Virus record (IMG/VR): IMGVR_UViG_3300023281_001103
Coordinates: 1 to 28,465 of that record
DNA: 28,465 nucleotides
DNA from: a virus
Reading direction: 5' to 3' (one strand)
Positions 2-28,465 of this stretch are shown here, one piece after another. The first letter of the stretch is position 1; the number at the start of each line of letters is the position of its first letter. The notes below the pieces were generated by a model that worked only from the letters and a program-made list of their open reading frames with translations, had not been told where the DNA came from and did not search any database. The translations under genes and the position numbers were made by a program.

Positions 2-166
2 AAACCTCACGATTTAATCGTTTACAACGACAGAATTCAAATTGGTTGTTTAAATAACAGTATAAAACATTGGAAGGATAATTATAAAACTATTGGTTTG
101 GAAAACAAAATAAACGATGAAAATATAGAAGAATATGGTGAAATTATAAAAGGAGAAGGATTATGA
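2..166 (+). CDS. C-terminal 54 residues of an unidentified protein (partial)
   Basis: An open frame runs from the left edge of the window to a TGA at 164-166 and encodes the last 54 residues of a protein whose start lies outside the window. The tail is rich in Lys, Asn, Glu and Ile and ends in GEIIKGEGL. Its stop overlaps the polymerase start as ATGA, so the two genes are probably translationally coupled and in one operon. The Shine-Dalgarno sequence of the polymerase (AAAGGAGAAGG) lies inside this gene's last codons. I do not recognise a domain in the visible part. By position it may belong to the replication module, but that is inference. Confidence 0.6.
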   Translation, partial: KPHDLIVYNDRIQIGCLNNSIKHWKDNYKTIGLENKINDENIEEYGEIIKGEGL

Positions 167-1869
167 TTTACATACCATATGATATAGAGATTTACCCTGA
201 TAGATTCATGCTCGGTTTAAAATGGAAAGGTAAAAATATAATTTATGATAAGCTAGAAGATATCAGAAAAGTACCTTTTTTAGATAAAAAATATAAATTT
301 GTAGGATTTAATAATAGACGATATGATCAACCTATCTTAGATAAACTAAACCAAGGATATAATAAAGATAAATTATATAAATTATCAAAATCTATAATTT
401 CAGGAGAAGATGCAATATCTTGGAATGATAATATAATTGACCTCTTAGAAATATGCCCTAAAAGTAACAAATGTTCATTGAAAGAATTTGGCCATAGAAT
501 GGGTTATAAAACATTAGCTAACCTTCCTTATCCTTATGATAAACCCTTGAGTGAAGAAGAATGGGAAGAAGTTAAGAAATACAACATTCATGATTTAAAT
601 ATAACAGAAATGTTGTGGGAGAAACTAAAACCTGAATATGACGCTAGACAGTCTTTAAAAGTATTTTTTGATATAAAAACAGAATTTGGAGGTGCTCCAA
701 ACTTAGCTGCCAAATGCATATTGTCAAAATTAAGTGAAGAAAGTGTAAGTGAAGAATTTAAATTAATTAAAAAAAACAATTTAGTATTAAATGATAACAC
801 CCAAAATCTATACAACAAAACGTTTGACTTCCATTTAACAGATTATTTAAAAGGTAAAAAACCTGAATTGATGGAGATTGTAGATGAAAAAAATATAAAA
901 CGAGCTACTAAATATACAATAAACGATGTAAAAATTAAAATTGGTATAGGAGGTTTACATGGAGATACTATCCCAGGAGTTTATCATAATGTGTATGATT
1001 ATGACGTCACATCTTATTACCCTTCTATAATATTGAATTGTAAACTTGGTTCTGAGAAGTTCAGAGATATATATGAATGGATTTATAATAAAAGGTTAGA
1101 GTTCAAAAAAGAAGGATCTAGATATTCAAACACTTTAAAGCTTATTTTAAACTCATTTTTTGGAAAAACATTAGATAAATATTCTAAAGAGCAAATTTAT
1201 GCTCCTAATATAGGATTAAGTATTTGTTTTCTTGGGCAATTTTATTTAATAGATTTACTTGAGAAATGTGGTGATAATAATTGTTTGAGTGCTAATACAG
1301 ATGGTATTGTGTGCAAAAACGAAATTGACTACCCAATAATTAAAGAATGGGAAAATAGAACAGGTTTTAAATTAAACAAAACTAAATATAAAACATTTAT
1401 TATGCGAGGTTGTAATAGTTATTATGCTGAAACATCAGAGGGGCTCATAAAACGTAAGAAAGATTTCCTAGAACCCATATGGAAAAATACTGTTAAATTT
1501 CCAATAATACAAAAAACTGTAATAGATAATATAACTAAAGGTAAAAGCATTGAACAAAGCATTAAAAATGAAAAAGATATTTACAATTTCACTCACTTTG
1601 TAAAGAGTATAAAAAACGGTAAACTTTTGTTAAATGGTGAAAGCTTAGATGACCCTAAAATAAGATACTATGTTTCAACTGATGGATCTGTTTTGGAGCG
1701 ACAAACTCCAAAACAAAGAGCTAGAATCATAGCGGACTCAAAGATAAATTTGATAATGGATTTAGAATGGAGAGAAGACATAAATTATGATTGGTATATT
1801 GAACAATGTTATAGATTAAGAAAACGGTTAAAAATTAACGATCCTACACAATTAGAGATGGAGGTTTAG
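163..1869 (+). CDS. Family B DNA polymerase with 3'-5' exonuclease, compact phage type
   Basis: This 568-residue protein is a DNA-directed DNA polymerase that probably copies the phage genome. Exonuclease motifs are visible: Exo I YDIE (D7, E9), Exo II FNNRRYD (N50/N51, D55) and Exo III YNIHD (Y140, D144). A GIGGLHG segment (261-267) resembles the YxGG linker. Polymerase motif A is YDVTSYYPS (D281), motif B is KLILNSFFG (K326, N330, G334) and motif C is ANTDG (378-381). Motif C departs from the usual DTDS: the first Asp is Asn378, while the second (D380) is kept. Motifs A and B are only about 45 residues apart, leaving no room for the TPR1 insertion of protein-primed phi29-type enzymes, so I infer nucleic-acid priming. 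The size fits phi29 polymerase (about 570), but the fingers region is short. The ATG follows a strong Shine-Dalgarno sequence and overlaps the upstream stop. Confidence 0.88.
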   Translation: MIYIPYDIEIYPDRFMLGLKWKGKNIIYDKLEDIRKVPFLDKKYKFVGFNNRRYDQPILDKLNQGYNKDKLYKLSKSIISGEDAISWNDNIIDLLEICPKSNKCSLKEFGHRMGYKTLANLPYPYDKPLSEEEWEEVKKYNIHDLNITEMLWEKLKPEYDARQSLKVFFDIKTEFGGAPNLAAKCILSKLSEESVSEEFKLIKKNNLVLNDNTQNLYNKTFDFHLTDYLKGKKPELMEIVDEKNIKRATKYTINDVKIKIGIGGLHGDTIPGVYHNVYDYDVTSYYPSIILNCKLGSEKFRDIYEWIYNKRLEFKKEGSRYSNTLKLILNSFFGKTLDKYSKEQIYAPNIGLSICFLGQFYLIDLLEKCGDNNCLSANTDGIVCKNEIDYPIIKEWENRTGFKLNKTKYKTFIMRGCNSYYAETSEGLIKRKKDFLEPIWKNTVKFPIIQKTVIDNITKGKSIEQSIKNEKDIYNFTHFVKSIKNGKLLLNGESLDDPKIRYYVSTDGSVLERQTPKQRARIIADSKINLIMDLEWREDINYDWYIEQCYRLRKRLKINDPTQLEMEV

Positions 1870-5557: not shown

Positions 5558-5996
5558 TGTATATTATAAACCCCATTGTTATGTTACATAAAATAACCAT
5601 AGCTATGTGGAACGGTAAATTATTAAGTTGATATTGTGGCAGAACTAAACAATCAACAAAGAAATAACCGAAAAACCACCCACATATGCCATCTGTTAAA
5701 AAACGACTTATTTTACCTAAAAATTTCTTTTTATAATACTTATTATAAAAGAAATATGAGAATGTAGCTAAATCTATTCCCATATAAATAAATTGTGTAT
5801 TTGGTTGGGTTGATAAATGATTAGTTATTAATCCACCAAGAACTCCGTCCCAAAATGTATACCAACCTATTAATAATAAACCCACCATCGATATAAATTT
5901 ATCTGATTTTTTGGAAACCATCATATACACACCTCCTATTAAAGTAGATATTACGGCCTGTTGTATTGTTAATTCGTATTTTTTATCTTGACTCAT
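5535..5996 (-). CDS. Multi-pass membrane protein of the lysis region
   Basis: This 153-residue protein has about five hydrophobic segments: near 11-28, 34-58, 68-86, 98-119 and 127-147. They are separated by short, often basic loops (SKKSDK, NKYYKKK). There are no enzymatic motifs. It lies between the fibre genes and the endolysin gene, overlapping them by 14 and 23 nt, so it is co-translated with the lysis cassette. It could be a second holin, an antiholin or an unrelated membrane factor; five spans is more than typical holins have. No family is recognised with confidence. Confidence 0.6.
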   Translation of the reverse strand: MSQDKKYELTIQQAVISTLIGGVYMMVSKKSDKFISMVGLLLIGWYTFWDGVLGGLITNHLSTQPNTQFIYMGIDLATFSYFFYNKYYKKKFLGKISRFLTDGICGWFFGYFFVDCLVLPQYQLNNLPFHIAMVILCNITMGFIIYNEYNSRK

Positions 5997-6837
5997 ATAC
6001 TTGTATCGAAAAATCTACAGTCTGGGCAAATTGCTCAACCGCAGGAAAAGCTATATTAGTATAAGTATTAACTGTTACATAATTAACAGAATTAGTTTCG
6101 AACTTAAGGCTGTACGCCATGGTATTAGCCGCTCCAGCTATCAAAACAGCTCCTGTTACTATATAATTAGTTGTATCCATAGGTTGATCAAAATAAATGT
6201 TGGTTACGCCTGTACTTACTAACTCAGCAGAAATTATATTTTGCCCAACTGCACTGTCTAAATTAAAATTTACAAATTTAACAGTGGCAAAAGCTCTAGG
6301 CGCAGCATTATTAACTGTAGTATTAGTGTGACCCACTAATAAGCTTCCCTCTGACCCTGGAGTTTGATCAGCTAAATTATTTAAAAGGTTGACATCTTTA
6401 CTTATTACATTTATTAAAAAAAATGATCCCCCACTATATATAGCTCTAGTTAATAGAGTAGTAACTAATTCTCCTCCTATCAAAGGAGATCCTCCAGAAT
6501 CCACTAAAGGAACTGCGCCAATACTCTCTACATTTAAAGTGGTTGCCCCAGTATTATCGGCCAAAGGTAAGAATATAACCACCATACCTTCAAAATAAGA
6601 TATTGGTGGAACTGGGTTAAGTGAAGACAAAACATATACATTAGCCCCTCCACTATCTAGATATTCTCTGGCAGATGAGGACAAATTAGTTACAGCTTGA
6701 CTTAATTGTGTTAAATCTGTGCTGCTAAACGTCAGCCCAGTTAAAGTTATCATATTCTGCAACTCATTCAATGGTAGATCATTAAACTCATCAGCGGTGT
6801 AGGTGTCACCTGCTACTTTAACAGCAACTTCTTGCAT
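5983..6837 (-). CDS. Tail fibre protein, paralogue 3 (most distal)
   Basis: Third of three tandem paralogues; 284 residues from ATG at 6837. An in-frame GTG at 6840 is less likely: GGAGGG lies 5 nt before the ATG, and the paralogues also begin MQ. The N-terminal block (DTYTADEFNDLPLNELQNM, then DLTQLSQAV) is the common attachment region of phage and prophage tail proteins. The middle has NTGATTLNVESIGAVPLVDSGG and TPGSEGSLLVGHTN. The C-terminal domain (STGVTNIYFDQPMDTTNY, ending FSIQVYESR) diverges most from its sisters and probably carries receptor specificity. Position after the gp48-like gene matches Mu gp49 and downstream fibre genes. Host binding is inferred; no chaperone gene is evident next to it. 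Confidence 0.7.
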   Translation of the reverse strand: MQEVAVKVAGDTYTADEFNDLPLNELQNMITLTGLTFSSTDLTQLSQAVTNLSSSAREYLDSGGANVYVLSSLNPVPPISYFEGMVVIFLPLADNTGATTLNVESIGAVPLVDSGGSPLIGGELVTTLLTRAIYSGGSFFLINVISKDVNLLNNLADQTPGSEGSLLVGHTNTTVNNAAPRAFATVKFVNFNLDSAVGQNIISAELVSTGVTNIYFDQPMDTTNYIVTGAVLIAGAANTMAYSLKFETNSVNYVTVNTYTNIAFPAVEQFAQTVDFSIQVYESR

Positions 6838-7661
6838 CACAACCCTCCATATATAGTGAATGAAAAACCAGTATCAACAGATACCCCAAGGGTATTTTTT
6901 ATAACAATAATAAAACTGGTAGTGTTTATTGATTTTGCATTTATAAAATAAACATTTGTTCCACCATCAACAGAATACCCAATACTATAATTGTCTGAAC
7001 TCAATTCATCCTGAAAAGTAACTTGTATTATCCCTGTGCTTTCTTCACTTATAGAAGCTATGTTGTATGAATTTTCTAATGTATACCCGCTGCTGTAACT
7101 TATATACCCAAAGGCTATTGGGAGATAATCATACAATACCGCATTAGTGTTGCCTACAAGACGAGTTCCTTCTGAGCCTGACGTTTCTGAAGCATACAAA
7201 CCAGCACTTACAGAATCAACGTCATTAAAATTATATAATATAAAGTTACCTCCGATGTTAATAAGAGTTACATACTCACCCTCTATTAATTCATTCCCAG
7301 TAAGAGCAGCTCCAGTTGAATCTAATATACTTACTGCACTCAGCCCATTGACAGATATGGTGGATGCGGTTGTGTTAGTTGAATTAGCAAAAAATCTAAC
7401 TGTATCCCCTGTGGTAAAACTTAACATTTTAGCAAAACTATTTATAGAATTAACCACATAAGCATTAGCACTCCCTGAATCTACAAAATGTAAAGATGTT
7501 GAATTTATTATGGCAATACCCTTATGTAATTGATCTAAATCATCTGAATTTAGAGTTTGACCAGTATTTATTACTAAATTCTGCATCTCTTGAGAAGCTA
7601 ACGTATTAAACTCATCTGCAGTATAAGTGTCTGTAGCAACTTTATCAGCAATTTCTTGCAT
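6837..7661 (-). CDS. Tail fibre protein, paralogue 2
   Basis: The middle copy of the fibre triplet has 274 residues. It shares the N-terminal DTYTADEFNTLASQEMQNL block, a DSGSANAYVVNSI segment, TTASTISVNGLSAVSILDSTG and TSGSEGTRLVGNTN with its neighbours. Its C-terminal part (YTLENSYNIASIS, STGIIQVTFQDELSSDNY) is closer to paralogue 1 than to paralogue 3. The genes for paralogues 1 and 2 also share long near-identical DNA around 7061-7086 and 7885-7912, evidence of recent duplication or gene conversion. The ATG directly follows the upstream stop (TAA-ATG). The product probably trimerises at the baseplate or fibre tip; the oligomeric state is not visible from sequence. Confidence 0.7.
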   Translation of the reverse strand: MQEIADKVATDTYTADEFNTLASQEMQNLVINTGQTLNSDDLDQLHKGIAIINSTSLHFVDSGSANAYVVNSINSFAKMLSFTTGDTVRFFANSTNTTASTISVNGLSAVSILDSTGAALTGNELIEGEYVTLINIGGNFILYNFNDVDSVSAGLYASETSGSEGTRLVGNTNAVLYDYLPIAFGYISYSSGYTLENSYNIASISEESTGIIQVTFQDELSSDNYSIGYSVDGGTNVYFINAKSINTTSFIIVIKNTLGVSVDTGFSFTIYGGL

Positions 7662-8489
7662 TTATCTAACCTCCATCACTGAAAATGAAAAACCTTGTTC
7701 GCTTCTACCTGTCCCTTCCCCAATATTTATAGTAAATCCAGTAGTAGCTAAATTAGATGTGGATATTGTGACAGGTAAAATTCCTCCATTATCTTCTAAT
7801 AAAAGAAGAGTATTATAAGTAGCTGTACTCATATCTTCATCAAATGTTATATCCACTACACCTGTACTACTTTTGCTAATCGACGTTATGTTATATGAAT
7901 TTTCTAATGTATACACACCAGATGCTTCAGAAACCCTCCCAAAAGCTCTAGGTAAAACATTATATAAACTTTCATTTGTATGCCCTATTAACTTAGACCC
8001 TTCACTACCTGGAGTATCATCTGAGAAATCAACTGCTAATGCTGCATCAGTTGTAGATTCATTTACTAATACAAATACATTATTTAAATAAATTATTTCA
8101 GCAGATAAATCAGCTACAAGTTCACCTCCCAATAAATCATTACCATTACCATCCATTAATGGTGCCACACCTAACCCATCTACATTAACTGTAGAAGCTC
8201 CGGTATTTGTGTTAACAACTTTAAAAATACAAGTCATACCCTCCACATAAAAAGGTAACGCAATAAAACCTATTTTAGTTAAAACATAACTATTAGTTGT
8301 CCCAGAATCATTATATTCTAAAATAGCTGAAGCTGTTTTAACTACACCTTGAGCCAATTGTTCTGAATCACCAGGGTCAAAGGTTTGATCAGTGTTGGAA
8401 ACTACACTCTGTAATTCCTGTGATATAGTGTTATTAAATTCATCTACACCGTACACATCACCAGTTTGTTTTAAAGCTGTTTTTTGCAT
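7662..8489 (-). CDS. Tail fibre protein, paralogue 1 (proximal)
   Basis: First gene after the baseplate genes; 275 residues. N-terminal block: DVYGVDEFNNTISQELQSV, then DSEQLAQGVV and DSGTTNSYVLTKI. The middle has NTGASTVNVDGLGVAPLMDGNG and TPGSEGSKLIGHTN, followed by PRAFGRV. The C-terminal domain (NITSISKSSTGVVDITFDEDM, ending FSFSVMEVR) is a probable receptor-binding beta-domain. The start overlaps the stop of the gp48-like gene as TAATG. Its place directly after gp48 matches the first fibre gene of Mu-like tails, so this copy is the best candidate for the fibre that attaches to the baseplate. Whether all three copies are present on one virion cannot be told. Confidence 0.72.
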   Translation of the reverse strand: MQKTALKQTGDVYGVDEFNNTISQELQSVVSNTDQTFDPGDSEQLAQGVVKTASAILEYNDSGTTNSYVLTKIGFIALPFYVEGMTCIFKVVNTNTGASTVNVDGLGVAPLMDGNGNDLLGGELVADLSAEIIYLNNVFVLVNESTTDAALAVDFSDDTPGSEGSKLIGHTNESLYNVLPRAFGRVSEASGVYTLENSYNITSISKSSTGVVDITFDEDMSTATYNTLLLLEDNGGILPVTISTSNLATTGFTINIGEGTGRSEQGFSFSVMEVR

Positions 8490-18879: not shown

Positions 18880-19312
18880 TACCAATTCTCAATTTAAAAT
18901 ATGTTTCTGTATTTCTTTCATTATCATTAATTGATTTTATTAAATAGGGGCGTTGCGCCATTCTCGAAGTTCCAAACTCCAAAAACTTAGCATAAAAAGC
19001 ATCATTATTCCCCGCTGAAAAATCTAATTGTTGCCAAGAAGATGTTTTTGTTTCTAAGCTTTTCTCCAGGGTTCCTGTGAACTTGGCCGGAGCTTCACCT
19101 GGGGCAGATGCTTGGTGTCTTACCAAGCGTCCGTTCAATCGTTTTATATAAACTCTTCCTGATTTAGGCGCTCTAAAATCTTTTTTTGTAGTTTTCTTCA
19201 AATTGTTAGACAAATCTCTATAAGCTAAAGATATTCCTTTTTTATAATCTTTAGCTATAGAATCTAACTTTTCATATACATCTTTATTACATTTAGAACT
19301 AACTACAATCAT
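18857..19312 (-). CDS. HK97 gp10-like head-tail connector / tail completion protein
   Basis: The 151-residue product has the HK97-gp10-like signature: a basic N-terminal part (SIAKDYKKGISLAYRDLSNNLKKTTKKDF), then RHQASAPGEAPAKFTGTLEKSL (residues 66-87 approximately) and a C-terminal FYAKFLEFGTSRMAQRPYL with NDAFYA. Family members bridge the completed head and the tail, acting before or at joining. It overlaps the next gene's start by 23 nt (to ATG at 18879) and overlaps the upstream paralogue's stop as ATGA. The Lys-rich N-terminus could contact DNA. There are no other functional motifs. Confidence 0.8.
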   Translation of the reverse strand: MIVVSSKCNKDVYEKLDSIAKDYKKGISLAYRDLSNNLKKTTKKDFRAPKSGRVYIKRLNGRLVRHQASAPGEAPAKFTGTLEKSLETKTSSWQQLDFSAGNNDAFYAKFLEFGTSRMAQRPYLIKSINDNERNTETYFKLRIGNELKTIN

Positions 19313-19713
19313 ACAGTTCGTACTGGTATAGGTTTCACCAATCTCTCAGAAGCTTCTAGAGCATATACTGTCCCAACTCCGTCAGTTGATGTAGCAACTA
19401 CTTTATAATACTGAGCAGTTAAACTTGTTATACCCAATACTAAAGGATATGTTGAATCAGTTGTTATAGTTTTAGTATCGTAAGGGTTTATCAAATTTGC
19501 ATCCGGAACACTAGTATAACTAATGGAGTCATCTGATTCCTGTATGTCGATAACCACATCCGAAGTAATACTGTCCACAAATATAATAAAATTTAGAGAA
19601 AATCCCTGTTTTGCGCCTGATGTAATAATATTACTATCAACATCCCCTACAATTAAGGAATCATTTAGAATTACTTCATATTCTATATCACTTGTAATAT
19701 CTTTTATAGCCAT
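19309..19713 (-). CDS. Small beta-rich head protein, paralogue C
   Basis: The 134-residue product shows one of three copies of a pattern in this region: hydrophobic strands, then DIQESDDSISYTSVPDANL, then strands with LGITSLTAQYYKVVATST and a Pro-rich tail (RLVKPIPVRTV). It has no Cys or recognised catalytic residues. The fold is probably an immunoglobulin-like beta-sandwich, as for many small decoration or connector-region proteins. A Shine-Dalgarno AGGAG precedes the ATG. The role is inferred from place in the connector cluster: a head decoration or fibre subunit is likeliest. Confidence 0.55.
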   Translation of the reverse strand: MAIKDITSDIEYEVILNDSLIVGDVDSNIITSGAKQGFSLNFIIFVDSITSDVVIDIQESDDSISYTSVPDANLINPYDTKTITTDSTYPLVLGITSLTAQYYKVVATSTDGVGTVYALEASERLVKPIPVRTV

Positions 19714-19722
19714 TTTTTTCTC

Positions 19723-20121
19723 CTATGTTTTAGAGGCTTCTTTGTCAGTTGACCCTGTTGTTTGACAGTTTAACTGCAAAAATAAATTATTATCTTCTAA
19801 ATTTATGATATTCATAATATCATATCTGTTATCAGAATATTCCACCCAATTTTCAGAAGTTAAATCGGATTTATAACGTATGTAAAATACAGTATCTATC
19901 ACACGTTCTATACCAACATCATCAAATATAGTTTTGCCCTTTGGAGTTTGTATCATACTCCAAACTTCATAGAGCAAAAGGAATTCTTCTCCAAAATCTA
20001 TATCATCCCCTCCCGGATTAGTAGGCGCACTTATCTCTCGGGTATAAATTCCTATTTTCCTATTCAAACTTCCTGAACAAATCTGAGTCTTCGTTCTTTC
20101 TATGTTTACACAATTTACCAT
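19723..20121 (-). CDS. Head-tail joining / head closure protein
   Basis: The 132-residue product fits the SPP1 gp16/HK97 gp7-like head-tail joining family: an N-terminal part with LNRKIGIYTREIS, an FGEEFLLLYEVWSMIQTPKGK segment, and the motif RVIDTVFYIRYKSDLTSENWVEYSDNRYDIMNI, which is the usual rivy...I...w...g.rYdI pattern. Such proteins form a ring closing the portal channel after packaging. The start overlaps the upstream stop as TAATG. The N-terminal CVNIERTKTQICSG has two Cys. Its position between two copies of a beta-rich protein is unusual; the normal order has it next to the gp6 connector. Confidence 0.72.
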   Translation of the reverse strand: MVNCVNIERTKTQICSGSLNRKIGIYTREISAPTNPGGDDIDFGEEFLLLYEVWSMIQTPKGKTIFDDVGIERVIDTVFYIRYKSDLTSENWVEYSDNRYDIMNIINLEDNNLFLQLNCQTTGSTDKEASKT

Positions 20122-20540
20122 TAGAAGCTACTAGGTGGAACATCTGGTTTCTGTTTTAATTTACCAACTAAAAATATATATGATGAATATCCATTTCCTT
20201 GATTCACTATGGTTATATTAGCTCTTAAATATTGTAAATCTGATAATACTCCAACTTGTAATAGAGTTTCTCCCTGTTGATCGGTGTCATCATGTACAAT
20301 AGGGTAAACTGGAGTTAATAAACGCTCTTCAGGGACTTCAGACCATGTAGTATTATCTTCTGACTCATCAATTGTTATTGTCAATTCATCATTATTAGTA
20401 GCTAAAAACATAAACCCAAATGAAACACCTTCCGAATATCTGGTTATATCTACTCCATCTGTAGTAATGTCGCCAGTTTGTTGTTCAGTTAATGTTAATA
20501 AAATAGCTTCTATATTATATTTTTCACAATGATAAGCCAT
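20121..20540 (-). CDS. Small beta-rich head protein, paralogue B
   Basis: The 139-residue product is similar in pattern to the 20543 and 19309 products: LTITIDESEDNTTWSEVPEERLL in the middle, LLQVGVLSDLQYLRANITIV, and a final GKLKQKPDVPPSSF. Strong Asp/Glu content and a WSEVP motif are shared. No domain of known function is recognised. It probably decorates the head or forms a connector-associated fibre; the strand pattern suggests an Ig-like beta-sandwich. The ATG is 3 nt beyond the upstream stop. Confidence 0.55.
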   Translation of the reverse strand: MAYHCEKYNIEAILLTLTEQQTGDITTDGVDITRYSEGVSFGFMFLATNNDELTITIDESEDNTTWSEVPEERLLTPVYPIVHDDTDQQGETLLQVGVLSDLQYLRANITIVNQGNGYSSYIFLVGKLKQKPDVPPSSF

Positions 20541-20542
20541 AA

Positions 20543-20950
20543 CTATACTCCGCTATCGTCAAACGGTTTATTGGAAACTTCACCTCTAAATACAACATTA
20601 ACGTGTTCATTTGTGTCTGCACTCGCTGTAAAAACCTGTCTTATATATCTTTCATTTGATATTATCCCAACAGACATTAACTCGTCACCATCAATAGATC
20701 CTGTTGTAAATAATAAATCTGAGGTTTTAATAATTTTATCATCTGGCATTGTAGACCATGTAGATGCGTCTTCTGATTCTTCAAAAATAAATGATACATC
20801 TGAACCGAAACCTATATTAGCATAAATAAATGTTATGCTTGTATAACCTTCTGTATCAAAGGTATTGGTAGTGAGTCCACCTGTATTTATTGATTGGTTA
20901 CCTTGTATCTGCACATGCTCGTAATTAGACTTTATATCTTTATCACTCAT
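20543..20950 (-). CDS. Small beta-rich head protein, paralogue A
   Basis: The 135-residue product has the motif VSFIFEESEDASTWSTMPDDKI (about 52-73) and MSVGIISNERYIRQVFTASAD, homologous in arrangement to the two genes downstream. A Thr/Ser-rich N-terminus precedes it. Gene order (capsid, gp6-like connector, then this) places it with head completion. The ATG overlaps the connector stop as ATGA. Unknown function; the most plausible role is decoration or completion of the capsid. Three divergent copies in 1.7 kb suggest repeated duplication with functional division. Confidence 0.55.
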   Translation of the reverse strand: MSDKDIKSNYEHVQIQGNQSINTGGLTTNTFDTEGYTSITFIYANIGFGSDVSFIFEESEDASTWSTMPDDKIIKTSDLLFTTGSIDGDELMSVGIISNERYIRQVFTASADTNEHVNVVFRGEVSNKPFDDSGV

Positions 20951-24682: not shown

Positions 24683-26009
24683 TTTCTATTTCAGCTTGTG
24701 TTGGGATGTCTGAAGAAGGTTTGTATATCTCATCTCCATCAGAATAAGAGGGTAAATCTATACGATTTCGTAACTCATTATCTGTCATTACATTTAATGT
24801 TTTTAGTTGAGTTATCTCTAAAATGTTTCTCTGTCTAATAGCATCAATTGTAAAAGGATCATAAGTTAAAATAAGATTTTCTGAATTTTTATAGTAACTC
24901 ATTAAATTATTTGTCAAAAATTCTAACAAAACATTAAGTTGAGGTAAGACAGCATAATCATATAAATTCAAACGAGCTGTTTCCATGTTAGCTAATGATA
25001 ATGATGTAGAATTAATTAAAGCTAAGGGAATCTGAAACCTATTATAAATAGCTTCTGTAACCATAGTTTTCATCCCACTGAAATCCATATCTACATTAGT
25101 CATCCCCATTCGTTCTATTTTATCTACCATATTAGAGGTTAATGTTCTTCCAGCATTGGCTGCCCCTGCATACATATTTTCTATCTGAGAGGTTAAATAA
25201 TTTTTATCTTCATCGCTGAAAATTTCTTCATCTTTTAAACGCAAAAACATCCCTGGGCGAGCACCATTTTTTAATAATCCTAAATTGTGCACTGAAGCCG
25301 CTTCATATTGTAAAAGCTCAAATAAAATACTATTTAACTTAGGTAACCCATATAAGTACATGGAATAAGCGTTTGGATTAAAGTCTTTCAAATGCAGTAG
25401 CTGCTTAGCACCATCTTCACTTATATATTTAAAATCAGCTTGCCTGTTGAATGTTATATTACTTCCTTGGGGAGTGTAAAAATAACTGTCTATATAACCT
25501 TCTCCACCAACAACCCAATTTATATATTGAGGAGGTACAACAAATAATTCCAAAGGTTCATTGGTGGTAGATAATGTAACAATTATAAAATTATTTCCTG
25601 TTATGGAATAAAACTTAGAGTTTTCTGAAATGAAATTACAATAATTAGAGTTTGGAAGTTGATTAGGATTATTTAACAACTCCAAGATTGGATGTTGTTC
25701 TATGTACTCTTTATTTTTTTTATCCCATAATTTCAAATCAATTGATGATATAGATGTAGCTACTGTGTCAACCGCATTACCTAACGGCTCAATTTGAGAG
25801 TAGAGACGTATATAAGTTGAGATCAGAGGCCAAAATGCGCCCGATTTTTGCTGAGCTAAAATAGATAAAATTGAACTTTGATCATTTCCTGTGAAAACAC
25901 TAAAAGTCTTCTCAAGTTTTTTCTCCTGATTCAATACTTTTTGTTCACGAGCTGCTAGCTCATTGTTTATTCTATCAGCTTCTTGTAAAATTTTATTTTT
26001 AAACCACAT
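24672..26009 (-). CDS. Portal protein (HK97 gp3-like)
   Basis: The 445-residue product forms the dodecameric DNA channel at one vertex. The N-terminal helix (QEADRINNELAAREQKVLNQEKKLEK) is followed by portal core motifs: TYIRLYSQIEPLGNAVDTVATSISSIDLKLWDK, HPILELLNNPNQLPNS (about 108-123), NSKFYSITGNNFIIV, GAARPGMFLRL-like sequence with YLTSQIENMYAGAANAGRTL, and FQIPLALINSTSLSLANMETARLNLYDYAVLPQL near the C-terminus. TITQLKTLNVMTDNELRNRIDLPSYSDGDE is the usual C-terminal pattern. It overlaps the large terminase by 11 nt. The family call is firm; oligomeric state is known for the family, not visible here. Confidence 0.88.
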   Translation of the reverse strand: MWFKNKILQEADRINNELAAREQKVLNQEKKLEKTFSVFTGNDQSSILSILAQQKSGAFWPLISTYIRLYSQIEPLGNAVDTVATSISSIDLKLWDKKNKEYIEQHPILELLNNPNQLPNSNYCNFISENSKFYSITGNNFIIVTLSTTNEPLELFVVPPQYINWVVGGEGYIDSYFYTPQGSNITFNRQADFKYISEDGAKQLLHLKDFNPNAYSMYLYGLPKLNSILFELLQYEAASVHNLGLLKNGARPGMFLRLKDEEIFSDEDKNYLTSQIENMYAGAANAGRTLTSNMVDKIERMGMTNVDMDFSGMKTMVTEAIYNRFQIPLALINSTSLSLANMETARLNLYDYAVLPQLNVLLEFLTNNLMSYYKNSENLILTYDPFTIDAIRQRNILEITQLKTLNVMTDNELRNRIDLPSYSDGDEIYKPSSDIPTQAEIENGN

Positions 26010-27240
26010 AAGTAAATGCTCTCGTTTTATTCTTCATCAAATCATAAAGCGCCCATACCAATGCGTCTAATCGGTCAGGGGACATAGTGTTGTCCGTTGG
26101 TACCCACCCTACCATTTGATTTTCCAATTCTTTGAAATGTTGGGTATGTGAAATTCTCTTCTGTTCATATAATGCCACAATAGGTTCAGCTCTTATATTC
26201 TTTCCTCGACTAGCTCTAACTTTAGTTATTGGTAAATTTCTATTCACATTACGTAATGTTTGCTCAACCAAATCCCCTCCTTGGTTGATTTCACACACAA
26301 TTCTATCAGCCTTAAATTCATCATACAATTTGTTAACAATCTGAGCCCATTGGTTAGGCGTGTATCTACCACTTCTATCAGCTAAAACATAACCTTGTTT
26401 GTCTTTCAATCCACATACAATGATGCCTGTCTCATCTGAGGTCTTTTTAGAGCTGACAGCTGGGTCTACCCCAATTACTATCCTTTCTAACTCTGGTGGC
26501 TCCTTACCTCGTTGTATATAGCTAATTTTCCACAATGCGCCTTCTATTTCATTAGCCCACTCACCTTCTAGAAATCTTAGTCGTTTGGCTGCTGATAAAT
26601 TATCTAACGTATTCTCAATATAACCAGAAGGTAAGTTGATTCTATTATGAACAGGGTTCATGACTAAATGTAAATAATCTTTAGAATTTAAATCTAAACG
26701 GCTCTCTGGGTGTATATTTTTTATAAATAGGTCATGTATCCAATGCATTGTGTGTGTAGGATTACAGTCTAATACAATTTGGTTAGTGAAGTTGGGTATA
26801 TTTTGAGCTAAGCGTGTTTTTAGCTTCTCAAATGTTTCAAAGCTAAGTTGGACAGCCTCATTTATATATATTCTGCAATATTCATTCCCTAAGGCTTTCT
26901 CGGCTGAATCATGATTAGCCATTCCCGCAAACCAAATCTCAGAATCATTTGGTAATCGAGCAAACATATATTTACGATTTATTTTTAATTTTAAATCTGG
27001 ATCAATTAGTTTACACATTTTAGGGAATGTGTCTTCAATAATTGAAGGAACTAACTCAGACAGATGTTGGCGTGTTATTAGCTGTCTACAACCTTCATAT
27101 TTTAATGCCGTCGCTATGATAACTATATTATGTAAAGATGTCTTTCCAGAACGGCTACCACCAGCTAAGAGCAAATTTAAAGGATGTTTCTCATAAAGTT
27201 TAAGCGCCTCATATTGTCGCTCTGTTGGTTGAAATGTCAT
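25999..27240 (-). CDS. terL: Terminase large subunit
   Basis: The 413-residue product packages DNA into the prohead. ATPase: Walker A GGSRSGKTS (27-35, K33), a Walker B-like RIYINEAV (123-130) with catalytic Glu128 and Asn127 where Asp is usual, and CNPTHTMHW as the coupling motif (159-167). Nuclease (RNase H-like): VIGVDPA (D259), CEINQGG (E317) and SPDRLDALVWAL (D392). All three nuclease acids are present, so DNA cleavage should be active. It overlaps the portal by 11 nt and the small terminase as ATGA. Length is near the family norm. The packaging type (cos or pac) cannot be decided here. Confidence 0.92.
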   Translation of the reverse strand: MTFQPTERQYEALKLYEKHPLNLLLAGGSRSGKTSLHNIVIIATALKYEGCRQLITRQHLSELVPSIIEDTFPKMCKLIDPDLKLKINRKYMFARLPNDSEIWFAGMANHDSAEKALGNEYCRIYINEAVQLSFETFEKLKTRLAQNIPNFTNQIVLDCNPTHTMHWIHDLFIKNIHPESRLDLNSKDYLHLVMNPVHNRINLPSGYIENTLDNLSAAKRLRFLEGEWANEIEGALWKISYIQRGKEPPELERIVIGVDPAVSSKKTSDETGIIVCGLKDKQGYVLADRSGRYTPNQWAQIVNKLYDEFKADRIVCEINQGGDLVEQTLRNVNRNLPITKVRASRGKNIRAEPIVALYEQKRISHTQHFKELENQMVGWVPTDNTMSPDRLDALVWALYDLMKNKTRAFTYVV

Positions 27241-27725
27241 ACCGCATCCAATATCTCTTTACATAAGAATATTTCCATCTTATCTCGACCTTCATTTTTA
27301 TTGGTGAAGTCAATGTCTTGTTTCAACTTAAGGATATTTAAAGCTCTCTGAGCGTCTAAATAACTTAATCTACCCTTTTGGTACTCCTCTATTACATTCT
27401 CCCCTGTGAGCCTTGAGAGAGGCTTAGAACCAATCTGCAAACGTCGTTCTATTGCATCTAATTGATCAGATGTTAAATCGTCATATTTCAACATTTGATC
27501 AATCACATCTTCGCTGTAATTAAAATCAGGGGTAAAATTAAATGATTTACTCAATTCAACTATTGAATGGGTTGATCCACTTACTGCTTTCTGTACTAAC
27601 AAATGGTGAGCTAATGCTTTTGTCTTTTTTCTGACCTCATTGAAGTCACAAGCATCCCCACTCTTGATATATTTCTTCTGAGCCTTTTCAATTTGCTCAG
27701 TTAATTTTTGTGTAAAATCTACCAT
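27237..27725 (-). CDS. Probable terminase small subunit
   Basis: The 162-residue product precedes the large terminase, overlapping it as ATGA, the usual place of TerS. The sequence is helical and charged: KLTEQIEKAQKKYIKSG, KALAHHLLVQKAVSGSTHSIVELS, then DQMLKYDDLTSDQLDAIERRL and VIEEYQKGRLSYLDAQRALNILK. A 'ltseqlday...lq.g.r......v' pattern fits several TerS-like proteins but no DNA-binding HTH is obvious. The role is inferred from position. A very strong Shine-Dalgarno sequence (AGGAGGAG) sits 2 nt before the ATG, fitting the first gene of a long late operon. No strong leftward promoter consensus is visible upstream, so a phage activator may be needed. Confidence 0.6.
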   Translation of the reverse strand: MVDFTQKLTEQIEKAQKKYIKSGDACDFNEVRKKTKALAHHLLVQKAVSGSTHSIVELSKSFNFTPDFNYSEDVIDQMLKYDDLTSDQLDAIERRLQIGSKPLSRLTGENVIEEYQKGRLSYLDAQRALNILKLKQDIDFTNKNEGRDKMEIFLCKEILDAV

Positions 27726-27749
27726 AACTCCTCCTGGATGTATTTTAAC

Positions 27750-27830
27750 ATATCCACAACCTTATATCTAATGCTTTGATTAATATACGATAAGTGTGTG
27801 GTTAAATAAAAACAGGGGTTTTGTGGATAA
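27750..27830. promoter_or_regulatory. Cluster of three DnaA-box-like 9-mers
   Basis: The consensus box TTATCCACA occurs exactly on the minus strand at 27822-27830. One-mismatch versions lie at 27750-27758 (ATATCCACA, plus strand) and 27797-27805 (TTAACCACA, minus strand). A further ATATCCACA lies at 28363-28371 on the minus strand. Four sites in 620 bp of A/T-rich DNA is more than expected by chance for a 9-mer, but the one-mismatch sites are weak alone. Confidence 0.5.
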
Positions 27831-27838
27831 CTTTAGAG

Positions 27839-27869
27839 TAGTGTAGGGTAAAGGGGTCTCCCTACACTA
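27839..27869. repeat. Perfect 10-bp inverted repeat built from the iteron motif
   Basis: TAGTGTAGGG (27839-27848) and CCCTACACTA (27860-27869) flank an 11-nt loop. The arms contain the same CCTACAC heptamer as the iterons further right, in opposite orientation. On the plus strand it is followed by a few T residues (ATTTTAATTTA), so a weak terminator is possible, but a protein-binding dyad fits the shared motif better. Confidence 0.7.
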
Positions 27870-27939
27870 ATTTTAATTTATTGTTTAAAATCAATAAGTT
27901 TAATGTTAGTTTGGGTAGATAACCCATAGTACTAAAGTG

Positions 27940-27968
27940 TTGATTATAAAGCAACTTTAAAATATAAC
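27940..27968 (+). promoter_or_regulatory. Rightward promoter candidate (TTGATT-17-TATAAC)
   Basis: TTGATT at 27940-27945 matches 4 of 6 of the -35 consensus, and TATAAC at 27963-27968 matches 5 of 6 of the -10, with an ideal 17-bp gap. It would start RNA near 27975, just before an iteron (27978), and lead the long untranslated stretch toward 28458. Confidence 0.35.
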
Positions 27969-28000
27969 TGAAAATTAGTGTAGGTAAACGGCTAGAAAAA

Positions 28001-28033
28001 TTGGTTTGGGTTTTTATAGTGGTATACTACTAT
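28001..28033 (+). promoter_or_regulatory. Rightward promoter candidate overlapped by an operator-like dyad
   Basis: TTGGTT (28001-28006) and TATACT (28023-28028) are 16 bp apart. An 18-bp dyad, ATAGTGGTATACTACTAT (28016-28033), with one mismatched pair covers the -10. A repressor bound there would block the promoter. Evidence is only by motif. Confidence 0.3.
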
Positions 28034-28100
28034 GCAATACTTTAAAATATACCCTATTTTAAAACTGTAACTATAAACTACCTACACTACCTACACTATC

Positions 28101-28125
28101 TTAAATAATATATATATATTAATAA
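28101..28125. other. Pure A/T stretch, possible DNA-unwinding element
   Basis: Twenty-five consecutive A/T bases, including a TATATATATATT run, lie between two iteron groups. Such stretches are easily melted and typical next to iterons in replication origins. It is only suggestive here, because the whole region is A/T rich. Confidence 0.4.
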
Positions 28126-28143
28126 CTTACAACAAACCTTACC

Positions 28144-28360
28144 CTACACTGCCCTACACTGGCCTACACACCTCCTACACAAACCTAGTCAATGTCTCAC
28201 AAACTTGTTCAATCTTCTCTCAACTTTAGAATATTACTCCTGTGAATTATCTTTAGAGTATTGCTTTAGAGTTGAGACCAAATTGAACGATTGTTTAAGA
28301 ACAAGACATTTTCCAAAAAATTAGTGTAGGAGGTGTGTAGGCCAGTGTAGGGTAGTGTAG
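28144..28360. repeat. 217-nt imperfect palindrome with 37-bp near-identical arms
   Basis: Outer arms 28144-28180 and 28324-28360 are reverse complements with one mismatch in 37. Inside them, further paired blocks occur: 28191-28197 with 28304-28310, 28207-28213 with 28282-28288, 28218-28225 with 28270-28277, and 28235-28239 with 28256-28260. A 16-nt loop remains at about 28240-28255. Several inner mismatches are G-U compatible, so a transcript could fold as a long hairpin; as DNA it could form a cruciform. It may work as RNA or as an origin structure. Confidence 0.75.
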
Positions 28361-28399
28361 AGTGTGGATATCCTGTGTATATTGGAAAAAAATAATTTG

Positions 28400-28427
28400 T
28401 TGACACCAGATTAAAACATGTTATAGT
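28400..28427 (+). promoter_or_regulatory. Sigma70-type promoter for the rightward gene
   Basis: A perfect TTGACA at 28400-28405 and TATAGT (5 of 6) at 28422-28427 are separated by 16 bp. Transcription would start near 28434, leaving a leader of about 24 nt with Shine-Dalgarno AAAGGAGAAGG before the ATG at 28458. It lies 40 nt beyond the palindrome and next to the iteron group at 28324-28361. Confidence 0.6.
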
Positions 28428-28457
28428 GATTTTGAATTGACACAAAGGAGAAGGATT

Positions 28458-28465
28458 ATGAGTTT
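28458..28465 (+). CDS. Start of a rightward gene (only 8 nt in the window)
   Basis: ATG at 28458 follows AAAGGAGAAGG and a good promoter. Only MS and part of the next codon are visible, so the product cannot be named. The 18 nt around the start (28444-28461) are identical to 149-166 at the polymerase start, which hints at related leaders in one genome or module. Position at the right of the control region suggests the first gene of a rightward early operon. Confidence 0.5.

Follow-up and report, generated by a model that had tools for sequence, protein, structure and literature searches.

The array of the heptamer CCTACAC (GTGTAGG on the other strand) in the intergenic region near the right end of an incomplete phage genome raises the question of what binds there, and what this binding serves. 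The window, i.e., the whole stretch of DNA analysed, is a linear virus record of 28,465 bp (IMGVR_UViG_3300023281_001103) and, judged from its genes, is that of a myovirus-like tailed phage. Its minus strand encodes the tail sheath, baseplate hub, portal, and prohead protease, followed by terL (25999–27240; Pfam Terminase_6C/3/6N; PHROG 979) and terS (27237–27725), the latter recognized by its homology to the TerS of the closest relative found (23% identity, E 1e-9) and by its synteny with terL. According to the ORF list and the sequence, terS is separated from the first rightward, early gene by 732 bp (27726–28457), which constitute the whole putative origin. The early gene starts on the plus strand with an ATG after AAGGAGAAGG and is cut by the record end (28458–28465), while the phage replisome is represented by a family B DNA polymerase (163–1869, plus strand; PHROG 1252, 3.6e-105) at the opposite end of the record. 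Both gene direction and GC skew switch sign at the intergenic region, the change in skew being confounded with the direction of transcription. We consider it very probable that this region is the replication origin of a tailed phage, of the self-loading-helicase type exemplified by SaPI/PICI elements and the SCCmec Cch2 site. This reading rests on four observations: how the array is arranged, that it is not a product of chance, that relatives have a counterpart, and that arrays of this type go together with D5/VapE helicase genes.

The heptamer is present in 15 copies in the 28,465 bp, versus 1.6 expected from dinucleotide shuffles, and none of 100 shuffles reached 15. Twelve of these copies are found within 511 bp (27841–28351). 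The preliminary description of the locus had reported twelve exact copies on both strands, which is correct, in a span ending at 28361, which is not, as the exact copies stop at 28351 and positions 28355–28361 (minus strand) hold a thirteenth iteron with one mismatch (TCTACAC). Elsewhere in the window, the heptamer is no more frequent than chance would give, with three remaining copies (1843, 6797, and 26754). The two groups that had been described as spaced by 10–11 bp and facing opposite ways are exact: iterons 6–9 (28143, 28153, 28163, and 28174; 28143–28180, plus strand) follow one another in steps of 10, 10, and 11 bp, and iterons 10–12 (28324, 28335, and 28345; 28324–28351, minus strand) in steps of 11 and 10 bp. 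Two oppositely oriented sets of short iterons, as in PICI/SaPI-type origins, are therefore present. The other five, likewise located by motif count, are more loosely placed than these phased groups: iteron 1 (27841–27847, minus strand, read as GTGTAGG on the plus strand), iteron 2 (27861–27867, plus strand, CCTACAC), iteron 3 (27978–27984, minus strand), iteron 4 (28081–28087, plus strand), and iteron 5 (28090–28096, plus strand), the last one 9 bp from iteron 4.

Two further features had escaped the preliminary description. First, an imperfect palindrome of 223 bp (28141–28363; fold z −12.1) contains all seven heptamers of the phased groups in its arms. These 43-nt arms (28141–28183 and 28321–28363) are 93% complementary and enclose a partly self-complementary core, with iterons 6–9 in the left arm and iterons 10–12 in the right one. 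Second, a perfect DnaA-box-like sequence, TTATCCACA, is located at 27822–27830 (minus strand). This box is a consensus match only. With regard to a DnaA-dependent (oriC-like) origin, which would have a cluster of such boxes, the region offers this one perfect box and one-mismatch copies near the array at 27750, 27797, and 28363, and the whole window holds 40 sites with one mismatch at most. A smaller inverted repeat carrying two heptamers (27856–27989; arms 27856–27889 and 27956–27989, 82% complementary) lies further to the left. The palindrome was also considered as a telomere-resolution site, a candidate that was rejected since its centre is too imperfect. The core between the phased groups (28184–28320) has an A+T content of 69%, versus 67% for the window, and the A+T-richest stretches lie to the left of both groups. 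By composition, the best melting candidates are a stretch of 85% A+T between iterons 5 and 6 (28097–28142), which contains ATATATATAT, and one of 80% A+T between iterons 2 and 3 (27868–27977), either of which may act as an unwinding element.

The closest relative found, IMGVR_UViG_3300009788_000237 (loci L394 and L313), is syntenic with the window and shares 54% identity in the family B polymerase (L313), 46% in TerL, and 23% in TerS. Just upstream of its terS (L394, 480–880), the motif TTCACY/RGTGAA occurs 16 times in 473 bp (mean of 0.56 and maximum of 4 in shuffles), arranged as inverted arms that flank an A+T-rich core, and the same array region precedes terS in L419 (3300028610_001596). 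By sequence comparison, these arrays are probably the counterpart origin at the homologous spot, with the architecture kept and the word changed. The preliminary description had taken the absence of the array from close relatives as a counter-argument; architecture and position are kept in these relatives, with the heptamer replaced by RGTGAA. A gene for a D5_N/DUF5906 helicase precedes the polymerase gene in the closest relative, and the structural model of this helicase (mean pLDDT 67) ends in a helix-helix-strand-strand arrangement, so that its C-terminus is predicted to be a winged helix. The top structural matches of the model are the SaPI5 primase-helicase structures 7OM0/7OLA (Z 20.7, 319 residues, 5.6 Å), followed by the D5-type helicases of ASFV and poxviruses. 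A second, truncated D5-type helicase copy with an altered N-terminus is found a few genes downstream of the first one (L313, 1–1074 and 3487–4347). As a possible hint to the host, the polymerase of this relative shares 28% identity with one encoded on a plasmid of the intracellular Rickettsiales member Candidatus Megaera polyxenophila (CP113870.1, 9782–11554).

The heptamer does not characterize these phages in general, since it stays at background level (1.5 per 28 kb), with no further CCTACAC array, in 193 loci that are mostly polymerase relatives. Neither did the terL relatives L126–L128 hold an array, nor did BLASTN of the array region against the phage collection give a useful match. In a separate search, simple coding repeats with 12-bp steps made up many of the hits and were discarded. 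A scan of IMG/VR for three phased CCTACAC copies retrieved 76 loci, 27 with copies on both strands and 49 with copies on the same strand only. A primase-helicase gene (D5_N/DUF5906/Pox_D5 or VapE-like) ends close to 11 of the 27 inverted arrays, which begin between −5 and +22 bp from its stop codon, whereas this holds for no array among the 49 with copies on one strand (Fisher p 2e-6, or 1.5e-5 with duplicates removed); the helicase profiles used in this comparison were derived from the positive loci themselves, a bias towards finding them, whereas the distances to the stop codons are independent of this choice. The helicases adjoining the arrays are at most about 50% identical to each other, so they do not represent one phage sampled repeatedly. 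Some of them carry Prim-Pol, PriCT_2, or NrS-1-type domains (Pfam), and that of L136 matches both the SaPI5 primase-helicase 7OLA (9e-41) and the NrS-1 primase (about 4e-40). The genome set contributed further helicase-linked arrays (L191, L207, and L264), and four additional array contigs encode such a helicase elsewhere on the contig. Like the array of the window, inverted CCTACAC arrays fold as inverted arms, and their core is often A+T-rich and contains TATATA. Separately, a group of related prophages (L115, L124, L139, L141, L158, L162, L164, L166, L167, L179, and L180) holds 6–9 same-strand CCTACAC copies in about 120 bp of non-coding DNA.

The reversed heptamer, intended as a null control for the scan, gave 23 loci versus the 76. 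In three of them (L400, L412, and L416), a DUF5906-helicase gene is followed by an inverted CACATCC array, with iterons of the GTGCGGGAT type. These control loci being helicase origins with CACATCC, it is the architecture, and not one word, that goes with the helicases, and the control is read here as the same architecture with another word rather than as a failure of the test.

Origins of this kind are known from satellites such as SaPIs. In PICIs, two iteron sets flank an A+T-rich region 3' of pri-rep, and the function of pri-rep-ori has been demonstrated by a plasmid test (PMC6092414). SaPI Rep binds short iterons with its C-terminal domain, and the C-terminal domain of the D5_N helicase Cch2 from SCCmec binds in vitro AAGTG direct repeats downstream of the cch2 gene (PMC7581432). 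With the PICI/SaPI systems (SaPI Rep, SaPI5 PriRep, and the E. coli PICI EcCICFT073), the window shares two sets of short iterons; as to A+T-rich DNA, the core between its phased sets has the 69% given above, and the richest stretches lie between other iterons. A self-loading helicase with a C-terminal DNA-binding domain would be a further likeness, its fold (7OM0/7OLA) being that matched by the helicase of the closest relative. However, the window is not a satellite but comes from a tailed phage that has structural genes and a family B polymerase of its own, its iteron word is another one, and its arms form one long palindrome. Moreover, its array is placed between terS and the early genes, and not immediately 3' of rep, the left neighbour being terS on the minus strand and the right one the cut rightward gene, and the cognate D5/SF3-type helicase, encoded in the closest relative, would fall in the missing part of the genome in the case of the window. 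For both reasons, the locus is not filed as a PICI origin, but only as one working like it. The SCCmec Cch2 site is similar in its D5_N-type helicase family and its short GTG-containing iterons, and differs in having three 5-nt iterons after the helicase gene, versus twelve heptamers in inverted groups in the window. In the P4 ori/crr and lambda O origins, a phage initiator also binds direct repeats. Nevertheless, both the P4 iterons and the O/DnaB loading route of lambda differ from the arrangement of the window, in which no O- or P-like gene was seen.

By analogy with these systems, the following mechanism can be proposed. The D5/SF3-type (DUF5906) primase-helicase of the phage itself, whose gene would lie beyond the ends of the record, would bind the CCTACAC iterons through a C-terminal winged-helix domain; we infer this binding, along with the melting and the helicase loading, as the window's own initiator is predicted from relatives. 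The two opposite, helically phased groups would then load two helicase rings in face-to-face orientation, melting would occur in A+T-rich DNA that lies between these groups or next to them, and the primase activity, together with the family B polymerase, would start bidirectional copying.

A comparable arrangement is seen in the Alteromonas phage vB_AmaS-R9Y2 (OM732336), where eight copies of TGTAACG on both strands surround an A+T-rich core in a divergent region (30277–30700). As in the window, inverted iterons occupy the divergent region and the terminase genes are leftward; on the rightward side, the array directly precedes genes for an HTH protein and a D5 primase-helicase. Unlike the window, this phage has TGTAACG as its iteron and a family A polymerase, and its TerL is only about 25% identical. 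This region is presumably an origin too, a role for which no published statement was found.

The site of the array between divergent genes would also suit an operator, at which the divergent terS and early promoters would be controlled by a repressor or an activator; the cut rightward gene might, for instance, encode a small HTH protein with this function. Consistent with this, the first gene to the right of the R9Y2 array encodes a 54-aa HTH_17 protein, and a good sigma-70-like promoter for the rightward gene (TTGACA-16-TATAGT; 28400–28427, plus strand) is predicted 49 bp beyond the last exact iteron, as a consensus match only, with 5 such matches found versus 3.4 expected. An operator would, however, hardly need as many as twelve sites spread over 511 bp and set in palindromic arms, and in many contigs the same array follows a helicase stop codon rather than covering a promoter, so that an operator is unlikely, a double role in origin function and autoregulation being possible. 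The preliminary description had left the choice between a phage initiator and a repressor as the binding protein. Of these, the initiator is favoured by the arrays adjoining D5/VapE genes and by the inverted arrays of relatives, as far as sequence comparison goes, and the repressor becomes the rival reading just described.

A role in packaging, as the pac/cos recognition site of the small terminase subunit, is still less probable. The array is 116 bp upstream of terS, those of L394 and L419 are likewise upstream of terS, and the TerS proteins diverge strongly (23%), like the iterons; but arrays of the same heptamer elsewhere adjoin helicase and not terminase genes, and in R9Y2 the array adjoins the replication genes, with two genes between it and terS. 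Centromeres typically have iterated sites in helical phase as well, yet a parS-like partition centromere of a phage-plasmid is very improbable, given that the window showed no partition gene on inspection and that the association of the arrays is with primase-helicases. The least credible alternative, a palindromic repeat that is merely dispersed and takes no part in replication, draws on the many Prevotella/Bacteroidales contigs (L190–L305; e.g., CAJOLE0100000xx) where inverted CCTACAC arrays occur many times per genome, mostly away from helicases, and conflicts with the single array of the window genome and with the counterpart of the relatives, in which another word occupies the corresponding site.

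As a probable replication origin, the array offers a concrete and testable case for an uncultured phage group with no annotated origin. Satellite-type (SaPI/PICI) origins have been described as common to no other known replicon (PMC6092414), and the present results suggest that they are widespread in ordinary tailed phages. Since the origin word changes while architecture and position stay, these phages would also be a natural system for studying the co-evolution of initiator and site. In the open-licence literature, no description of the CCTACAC/GTGTAGG motif was found in connection with an iteron, a primase, or an origin; one iteron word across two helicase lineages, together with word turnover at a fixed position, may be new, no paper on either having been found there. 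The AEP primase of NrS-1 primes at GTG (PMC8718748). On a more speculative note, GTGTAGG could be an iteron word common to otherwise unrelated phages and elements and used by two initiator lineages (D5_N/DUF5906 and VapE-like), with the GTG core of GTGTAGG, RGTGAA, GTGTAAC/TGTAACG, GTGCGG, and AAGTG kept because the attached AEP primase would also start at these sites, thereby coupling binding and priming, a proposal that we regard as doubtful.

Elsewhere in the window, three paralogous genes of ~275–285 aa are found in tandem at the end of the tail module (5983–8489), and three proteins of ~135 aa from the head/neck region (19309–20950) are apparently diverged copies of each other.
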